From positions 3,116,792-3,152,913 of the forward strand of contig CP070768.1 of assembly GCA_020345745.1 (NCBI GenBank): a DNA stretch of 36,122 nt. Direction: 5' to 3'. This document shows, piece after piece, positions 20,267 to 22,185 of this stretch (positions within the stretch are counted from its first letter, which is position 1; each line of letters begins with the position of its first letter). The translations under genes and the position numbers were made by a program. The DNA is from Desulfobacterales bacterium (GTDB taxonomy: Bacteria > Desulfobacterota > Desulfobacteria > Desulfobacterales > UBA11574). The notes beneath the pieces were generated by a model that made no database searches, was not told the origin of the DNA, and saw only the letters and a program-made list of their open reading frames with translations.

Positions 20267-20453
20267 ATTATCCTCCACATGTAAATATAGTTGCTCAAGC
20301 CTTGAGCTCGCAACAATTTTCAGTTGATTTCATCTGTAAGGGCTTGATGGCTTTTTCTTGCAGTCGATATCAATTTTGTATTAGCCGTGTGCTCCAATAT
20401 TTATGATTTAAGCACTTTTTTTCATACCCACATTGCTTTAAAAAAATAATAAC

Positions 20454-20723
20454 TCACGTTTCGCACCCTAAAGTTGGCCACCATCCACGGTGCAATGCGG
20501 CTGGATAATATTTTTAAAAAGACAAAATTTGAATAAAGCGTTTTCGCACTAGCAACTGCGCATACATGCCAAATAAGCTTTACCCTAACTGAGCGCAAAC
20601 AAATTGAAGACACTTTTTATTATAACATCAAACAATAATTTTAACTTTACACCCGAATAAAACGAATTTGGATATCCCCTGAATACTTACCAGTTTGCTA
20701 TCGGATAGGGGTGCGAAACGTGA
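20454..20723. mobile_element. MITE-like element bounded by 15-bp inverted repeats
   Basis: TCACGTTTCGCACCC (20454-20468) is repeated exactly in inverted orientation as GGGTGCGAAACGTGA (20709-20723), giving a 270-bp segment. No transposase is encoded inside. A minus-strand frame (20422-20613) spans the left end but is not recognisable. I see no clear target-site duplication. The right end sits 3 bases past the stop of the MFS transporter gene. The arrangement fits a miniature inverted-repeat element or an internally deleted insertion sequence. Confidence 0.45.
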
Positions 20724-20726
20724 AGG

Positions 20727-21890
20727 TTAAGCTAAGCCGGCTTTACGATCCATAATATGTGAGAATGCTAGCAGCAGACCGCCGACCAGGGCAATAATAC
20801 TGCTGACCATAAATAGTGAAAACAAACCCATAATTTCAAATAGAAGTCCGCTAATGAAAAATCCAACCATTAAACCAAGCCCATAGGTGGTTGCATTGTT
20901 CACCGCTTGTCCAAGTGTTTTGGTTTCCGCAGGCGCTAAAGCATCGATATACAGGATGCTTGCGATATGAAATGTACCATAGGTTACGGCATGAAGCATC
21001 TGCAAAAGCAGTATGGCGAAAGGAGACACAATAAAGAAAAGAGCAAACCATCTCAAGGCCGCTACCATAAATGAAAAAATAAGAATGTTTTCGATAGAAA
21101 AATGTTTCAAAATGCTGTCTGATTTAATCATGACAATGATTTCAGCAATTGATGCTAAAGCCCAGGCAAGACCGATAAACATATTGCCGTATCCCAAATG
21201 TTCAAGATGTATAGAAAAAAAACCGTAATACGTGGCATGGCTGACAAGCATCAAAAAAGCACAAAGCAGAAAAATGATCATACGTCTGGTTAGCAATGCT
21301 TTGGCTTTTGTGGTAAATGCGCCTTTTTTCTCGATCCGGATATCAGGAATTTTTACGGAAATAAGGGCTTGCAGCACGGAACCGGCAAGTATCAATACAA
21401 GGATTATTTCAATGGAATAAACGTCTATCACCTTTCCCATGACAATGACGGTCATAATAAACGCGAAAGACCCCCATCCTCTGGTTCTTCCATAACTCTT
21501 CTTCTCCTTACCCAGGACATCCATGGTAAAAGCTTCCAGAAAAGAGATGATCGGCGTATAAAAAATCCCGTAAAAAATGGTAATGAGCAGCATGGCAAAA
21601 AAATCGATGGTATATAGATATAATGCCCAGATTCCCGTGCTTACAAAACTACAAAAAATATCTATCGGCCTCCTGATTTGAAATCGATCGGCCAAAGCTC
21701 CCCAGATCATGGGGAATAAGATTAATGCCACTGATCTTATGGCTGATAAAATGCCTATCTGGAAACCGGTGAAATCGAGATGGTAGCAATATAAGTTAAA
21801 ATAAGGCAAGAAAATGCCCATAATACCAAAATATAGAAAGTACTGGGAACCGATGACAAATTTATATGAATGTCCGGAATTATAATGCAT
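20727..21890 (-). CDS. Major facilitator superfamily transporter (MFS_1-like, HcaT/nucleoside-symporter type)
   Basis: The protein of about 387 aa has roughly twelve hydrophobic segments, the normal MFS size. The N-terminal half contains FGIMGIFLPYFNLYC, GILSAIRSVALILFPMIWG and ALADRFQIRR, the last being the usual loop 2-3 A-D-R motif. SYGRTRGWGSFAF is typical of the MFS_1-like (PF12832) group with HcaT-type proteins and some nucleoside/H+ symporters. The substrate cannot be read from sequence. The 270-bp inverted-repeat element lies immediately downstream. The ATG at 21890 is chosen over a GTG two codons earlier; neither has a strong ribosome binding site. Confidence 0.82.
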   Translation of the reverse strand: MHYNSGHSYKFVIGSQYFLYFGIMGIFLPYFNLYCYHLDFTGFQIGILSAIRSVALILFPMIWGALADRFQIRRPIDIFCSFVSTGIWALYLYTIDFFAMLLITIFYGIFYTPIISFLEAFTMDVLGKEKKSYGRTRGWGSFAFIMTVIVMGKVIDVYSIEIILVLILAGSVLQALISVKIPDIRIEKKGAFTTKAKALLTRRMIIFLLCAFLMLVSHATYYGFFSIHLEHLGYGNMFIGLAWALASIAEIIVMIKSDSILKHFSIENILIFSFMVAALRWFALFFIVSPFAILLLQMLHAVTYGTFHIASILYIDALAPAETKTLGQAVNNATTYGLGLMVGFFISGLLFEIMGLFSLFMVSSIIALVGGLLLAFSHIMDRKAGLA

Positions 21891-22185
21891 GTCCACGTTA
21901 ATACGTTATCCATTCATAAAATACAATTTTTATGTTACGGCCCCGCCTATATAATTTCTCAAAAACTGCAGGCAAGAATACTCAGGCTTTTTCTAGATGA
22001 GTTCCATGGATAGCCTTTTTTAAGCGCGGAAACTCATGGTCAGGTCACAGCGTAAAGAAAGAACAGAGGTTACCTAGCCCCCTTGCAACTCATCTTTACA
22101 AAAATGTTTTTTGGTGTTATTTTAGAAAAATTGAGTAGTTGGCAAAAGCAGAAATGATATCAGCTTTAACATGCAGGAGCCTAAA

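Follow-up and report, generated by a model that had tools for sequence, protein, structure and literature searches.

Correia/NEMIS, ERIC and QMITE2 are described as bacterial MITEs whose transcripts fold (review PMC10969869). Within the IS4 family of insertion sequences (ISs), for which the signature Y-(2)-R-(3)-E-(6)-K was defined in PMC2266710, the ISPepr1 subgroup is listed in Table 1 of that work with ends YT-AA-YTT---A, a length of 1500-1600 bp and target duplications of 7-8 bp. The account of Anabaena sp. 90 given in PMC3542288 describes many type II MITEs, intergenic in position, in a genome that also has an ISPepr1-type IS.

Here, we analyzed a 36,122-bp stretch (the window) of the Desulfobacterales bacterium genome GCA_020345745.1 (contig CP070768.1), a genome of one contig, 3,418,795 bp and 91.84% completeness that we refer to as G000. 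An element in the window belongs to a family that is like Correia/NEMIS, ERIC and QMITE2, as the review presents them, in being short, AT-rich, intergenic and multi-copy, with terminal repeats and foldback potential (PMC10969869). The family differs from these elements, as described in the same source, in its ends and its parent, in having a core of near-fixed length situated ~45 nt inside the terminal repeat, and in a core layout that is similar across three taxonomic families (PMC10969869). In Anabaena sp. 90, the MITE ends are reported to be without similarity to the ISs of that genome (PMC3542288), whereas the ends of the window's family exactly match those of an IS in sister genera. The literature searched on the end sequence, on ISPepr1 with MITEs and on folding MITEs yielded no description of this MITE family. 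In our assessment, it is very probable that the family was moved by an IS4-family transposase and that the window copy is an old member of it.

The element in the window

The 15-mer TCACGTTTCGCACCC is found at 20454-20468 and its exact reverse complement at 20709-20723, as a sequence-only reading of the window had claimed, and the two form the sole exact inverted repeat of at least 15 bp with an outer span of up to 300 bp in the window. Such a repeat is unlikely to arise by chance, being present in 4 of 200 dinucleotide shuffles (mean 0.02). Those four shuffles are all that speaks for a chance repeat or an ordinary hairpin, an explanation to which we assign a negligible probability given the dozens of copies, and the duplications and uninterrupted sites in relatives, that are described below. 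The sequence-only reading had also described the bounded segment as non-coding and as abutting a transporter's stop codon, which agrees with our results: no ORF of 80 aa or more is present within the 270-bp segment, and the stop codon of the adjoining gene, whose product matches MFS_1_like, is at 20727-20729, 3 nt beyond the 15-mer. Short, bounded by terminal inverted repeats and without a transposase gene, the element has the properties of a MITE.

The bases directly outside the two 15-mers are C at 20453 and A at 20724. In fresh copies from two sister genera (G013 and G009), the outer base is mostly C outside the left end and mostly G outside the right end. Because these fresh copies include one outer base per side, we take the window element to be 20453-20724, that is, a 272-bp element with a 16-bp terminal repeat (Table 1). 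Both window ends read TCACG, and those of the family mostly TCAAG.

Table 1. Features of the element and its surroundings, in window coordinates.
Feature	Position	Strand	Remark
Entire non-autonomous element (a MITE copy) of 272 bp, with one outer base per side	20453..20724	+	Outer base from G013/G009 fresh copies
Left terminal inverted repeat, CTCACGTTTCGCACCC	20453..20468	+	Commonest family form CTCAAGTTTCGCACCC
Right terminal inverted repeat, TTCACGTTTCGCACCC read inward	20709..20724	-	
Left arm of inner inverted repeat	20499..20528	+	Right partner absent from window copy
Left remainder of the family's ~210-nt core	20499..20581	+	GGCGC stem half is TGCGC here
Middle segment	20582..20648	+	Full-length match in only one other copy found, G000:2123886-2124297
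Right-end module common to other G000 copies	20649..20723	+	
Part of a second, different dispersed repeat, interrupted by the element's left end	20300..20452	.	Four other fetched copies uninterrupted
MFS_1_like transporter gene	20727..21896	-	Stop codon 3 nt outside the 15-bp repeat

A partner insertion sequence and fresh copies in sister genera

With at most one mismatch allowed, a pattern search located the 15-mer in 23 of the 24 genomes of the taxonomic family, against four matches overall for the reversed control. In G009 and G013, two facing 15-mers ~1.6 kb apart flank one long ORF, and G017 provides a third case; the ISs with both ends (G009:C145, G013:C222 and G017:C156) are 1597, 1600 and 1597 bp long, respectively. 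An IS with matching ends, which the sequence-only reading had proposed to look for, is present in sister genera in these three genomes. The 483-aa transposase of G009 scores 331 bits against the IS4-family model NF049925 (cut-off 250) and matches DDE_5 and DDE_Tnp_1 in Pfam, and the YREK signature, Y-(2)-R-(3)-E-(6)-K, was found in all three IS transposases. The terminal inverted repeat also encodes the last residues of the transposase (CET) and its stop codon (L241 297-311, L242 799-813 and L263 2935-2949).

With NF049925 above its cut-off, the YREK signature, a length of 1597-1600 bp and AT-rich targets, the partner IS is like the ISPepr1 subgroup as characterized in PMC2266710, and its end CTCAAGTTTCGCACCC fits the YT-AA-YTT---A given there for the subgroup. 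In contrast, the duplications are 6-7 bp here and 7-8 bp in the subgroup (PMC2266710), so we call the partner IS ISPepr1-like and do not place it in the subgroup. The MITEs of the window's family differ from ISPepr1 ISs in having no transposase. IS1634, first considered as the parent family for a likeness of the ends, reached at best 30.1 bits in G000 (cut-off 100) and was dropped in favor of an IS4/ISPepr1-like parent when the partner IS was found. We would also like to note that for two elements (L263, from G017:C156, and L349, from G275:C99) the flanks beyond the ends are mutual inverted copies for 12-13 bp (GAAACTTATAAC/GTTATAAGTTTC and GAAATTTACAAAC/GTTTGTAAATTTC), as if the element were centred in a palindrome.

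Thirteen MITEs of ~303 bp with the ends of the IS were fetched, three from G009 and ten from G013, the latter being 94-100% identical to each other; in these sister genera, the MITEs thus have their ends in common with an autonomous IS. Outside the ends, a comparison of the ~303-bp MITE with the IS found nothing significant in common (next best E = 0.057). The sequence-only reading had offered two identities for the element, a MITE or a deleted IS, and only the first of these is supported, given the dispersed copies, the IS ends and the uninterrupted sites of fresh copies. That the window element is an internally deleted copy of the IS, and not part of a separate MITE family, would explain why its ends match the IS ends, but we judge this very improbable, both for the lack of significant similarity beyond the terminal repeat and for the common core that the MITEs of several genera have as their own.

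Target duplications were counted for 17 complete elements, namely the three ISs, the 13 MITEs and, from G001, an element of 88 bp. In G004, a pair of ends 867 bp in span (L256) fits more loosely; it has no duplication and was excluded. Exact duplications flank 13 of the 17 (6 bp in 11 and 7 bp in 2), and the remaining four comprise two with a one-mismatch duplication and two with none. The 88-bp element (L258 927-1014, G001:C165) is barely more than two ends and is without a target duplication. The empty-site comparison suggested by the sequence-only reading was applied to fresh copies, and an uninterrupted site with a single target copy was found in a sister genome for three of the five insertions examined (that of L249 in G009, and those of L252 and L253 in G003). 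For L251, the element is absent in two relatives, but the junction has a 24-bp gap, and for L247 the right flank only was obtained. The ends common to MITE and IS, the duplications, the uninterrupted sites and the near-identical fresh copies support transposition of the MITEs as the best explanation. In the history that we propose, the MITEs would have been cut and pasted by an IS4-family transposase, nearest to the ISPepr1 subgroup and presumably acting on them in trans, that recognized the 16-bp ends and duplicated a 6-7 bp AT-rich target.

A protein search with the IS transposase matched 9 of the 24 genomes, G000 not among them, and some of these nine matches are fragments or distant relatives (25-34% identity) with no terminal repeat in the fetched stretch. 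No transposase of the partner class was found above the cut-off in G000 (91.84% complete), where the NF049925 family model reaches at most 36.6 bits against a cut-off of 250, and for that reason the mobiliser that acted in this genome is inferred. A transposase-like 400-aa ORF at G000:1014397-1014981 was considered for this role and rejected, as it scores 36.6 bits and has no terminal repeat in its fetched flanks with up to four mismatches allowed. Nevertheless, a likely mobiliser of the family has been identified in the sister genera, and the G000 copies would have been moved by a transposase of this class that was later lost from the genome.

Copies in the window's genome and the decay of the window copy

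The sequence-only reading had proposed a search for the 15-mer and for full-length copies, and copies were indeed found dispersed through the genome. With up to two mismatches, the window 15-mer has 32 matches in G000 against 3 for the reversed control, the commonest form being TCAAGTTTCGCACCC. The left part of the element occurs at no fewer than 39 other places in G000 (matches down to E = 2.5e-10; best 82% over 195 bp), a lower bound because the best 40 of 102 candidates were scored. A left-end profile retrieved 48 left ends at E < 0.003 in 56 G000 stretches, the window's own included, and 47 of the 48 are intergenic, as judged by mechanically called ORFs of at least 90 aa. Sixteen copies with both ends paired by the profile range from 101 to 593 bp, and one more, read by hand, is about 700 bp. 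The copies are mosaic, some containing other dispersed repeats, and 18 core copies are 66-89% identical to each other. Duplications at the 16 complete copies are no better than those of permuted flanks (mean 2.8 vs 2.5, p = 0.15), with a 6-of-6 target duplication retained in only one. One module inside the longer copies (L016 1752-1932, which is positions 282-462 of the copy G000:909377-909897) is a separate repeat that occurs in several genera of the taxonomic family, with loci in genera g6-g8.

The position of the element against the transporter's stop codon, the pairing of the window copy's terminal repeats in the predicted fold, and the statement in the review PMC10969869 that RNase III can cleave transcripts with a bacterial MITE would all fit an element retained for a local function, for instance in ending transcription behind the transporter gene or in processing its mRNA. 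We consider such retention unlikely on three counts. The element is absent after the same gene in all 17 relatives read, none of which has a terminal repeat (up to three mismatches) within 900 nt past the gene (the 17 do not include four other transporter loci, which either sit close to the end of a contig or are second fragments). Relative to their flanking ORFs, the 48 left ends show no orientation preference (++ 14, +- 12, -+ 11, -- 10, one undetermined). Finally, the window copy is without half of the folded core. The neighbour on the element's side of the transporter also differs in the relatives, so the comparison gives absence at the gene and not a clean empty site. The outcome that the sequence-only reading had named as counting against a mobile element, no other copies anywhere and a region conserved at this locus in distant relatives, was not what these searches returned.

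The window copy, which we regard as an old, partly deleted member of the MITE family with a high degree of confidence, has no target duplication (TAATAA vs GGTTAA, 3 of 6). A second dispersed repeat lies at 20300-20450; it is present at 40 or more places in G000 including the window (best 40 of 115 candidates scored) and also within several copies of the MITE family. All four other fetched copies of this interrupted repeat continue past the junction, for example as ATCATAA-TATTGGGTCAC, and in the window ATAATAA is followed by the element's C-TCACG. These uninterrupted copies fix the left boundary of the element at 20453 and supply the left half of an empty site. Beyond the element's right end, the interrupted repeat does not resume; most simply, the right flank would have been lost, either in a deletion or when copies recombined with each other. 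The window copy is missing half of the ~210-nt core of the family, including the right arm: its best match to that arm is 15 of 30, and shuffles average 15.2. The middle segment appears to occupy the place of the remaining core. Without its right arm, the window copy is uninformative on core function. The sequence-only reading can thus be refined, in that the window copy is decayed and partly deleted, is without a duplication, and has a left end that cuts another dispersed repeat. It is probably immobile now. Its proposed history begins with insertion at TAATAA inside the other dispersed repeat, of which the left junction is observed; the right flank would later have been lost together with the other copy of the target and what remained of the interrupted repeat, and the inner core partly replaced.

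The core of the family and its predicted fold

With a spacing of about 140-330 nt allowed from one inner arm to the other, a search returned 34 distinct cores; 29 of them, from four genera, were aligned, and five near-identical cores of genus g4 were excluded. The core starts ~45 nt inside the terminal repeat and is 207-213 nt long in 28 of the 29, the other being one of 190 nt with a partial arm deletion. It is closed by an inner stem of ~30 bp, inside which GGCGC pairs with GCGCC. The strand opposite to the left-to-right orientation folds better (-68.0 vs -55.4 kcal/mol, covariation scoring). Pairing holds in 90.5% of cells on this strand, compared with 35-48% in slid controls. Both-sided changes were counted in 44 cells, a number that 0 of 500 shuffles reached (mean 18), and in 14 pairs, a number reached by 41 of 500; the structure tested was derived from the same alignment, and the shuffles do not preserve relatedness. 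The other strand also passes most measures (23 cells vs 9.4, 0 of 500).

When both kinds are counted over one set of 28 inner-stem pairs, G-U cells number 42 and occur in 9 pairs, and A-C cells, which would be G-U on the other strand, number 7 and occur in 5. Selection acting on one single strand would be expected to give such an excess of G-U. Of the 42 G-U cells, 22 are in one pair and probably descended from one change, and the difference in the other helices is smaller, at 99 vs 53. Co-variation could also arise if the inverted arms were bound as DNA, as it does in terminal repeats. Taken as they stand, the alignments and predicted folds are suggestive of a structured, possibly transcribed core. 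Searches with the Rfam 15 covariance models at gathering thresholds (the window, L016, L019 and L247) gave no match, and a search of five loci at E up to 1 gave only a neighbouring tRNA gene in L243.

In a sample of 291 genomes of the order, a covariance model of the core matched 9, of which seven belong to the window's own taxonomic family and two (G085 and G275) do not; among 395 genomes drawn from the phylum, at E up to 1e-5 with stricter filters, it matched only G000. Five copies were fetched from two other families, and four of the five have similar ends ~45 nt outside the core; L346 has no clear end, and the core of L348 is shortened. At 47-56 bits (45 for G005), the scores of the cross-family matches do not exceed those that known members reach on the wrong strand (36-64 bits), so that these matches rest mainly on the inner palindrome. 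The evidence for these copies therefore lies in their shared layout, that is, in the ends, arms, lengths and inner stem. Their inner arms surround TTTAAAGGCAAAATA, the four full cores are 205-210 long, and their inner stems are GGCACAA/TTGTGCC, GGCACA/TGTGCC or GGCAC/GTGCC. This inner stem lies at position 51-53, and at 78-81 when counted from the far end (58-59 and 80 in L009, L296 and L211); the search by position covered the two orientations, of which the better was taken. Shuffled interiors reach such a positional stem in 9, 25 and 13 of 300 cases for three f63 copies, in 99 of 300 for f23 and in about 100 of 300 for single f1 copies. A different stem, of 5 bp, came out best in L243, the G005 copy (L350) has no positional stem, and the G003 match (L351) covers the left core part only. 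Scans of genome collections with the 15-mer gave scattered single matches, at least 118 stretches in one scan and 11 in another, and blastn of five family members against the 15-mer loci L061-L189 found only similarities of 20-27 bases, at E up to 0.01.

As biology, the insertion is ordinary and, as far as sequence can document such an event, well documented. The family offers a MITE life history read from sequence alone, with a putative parent IS, fresh copies flanked by target duplications, sites left uninterrupted in sister genomes, and orphaned fossils that sit in a genome without a recognisable transposase of the partner kind, and in which MITEs are seen nesting in other repeats and turning into mosaics. 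We raise, as a tentative and for now rather doubtful proposal, that the family may carry, as MITE cargo and across one bacterial order, a folded nucleic acid that is conserved and strand-specific and would probably be RNA. The cargo would, with the same reservation, be a possible undescribed core of about 205-213 nt that has no counterpart in the parent IS. If this core is indeed a transcribed RNA, the family would represent a structured RNA spreading as the cargo of a gene-less element.
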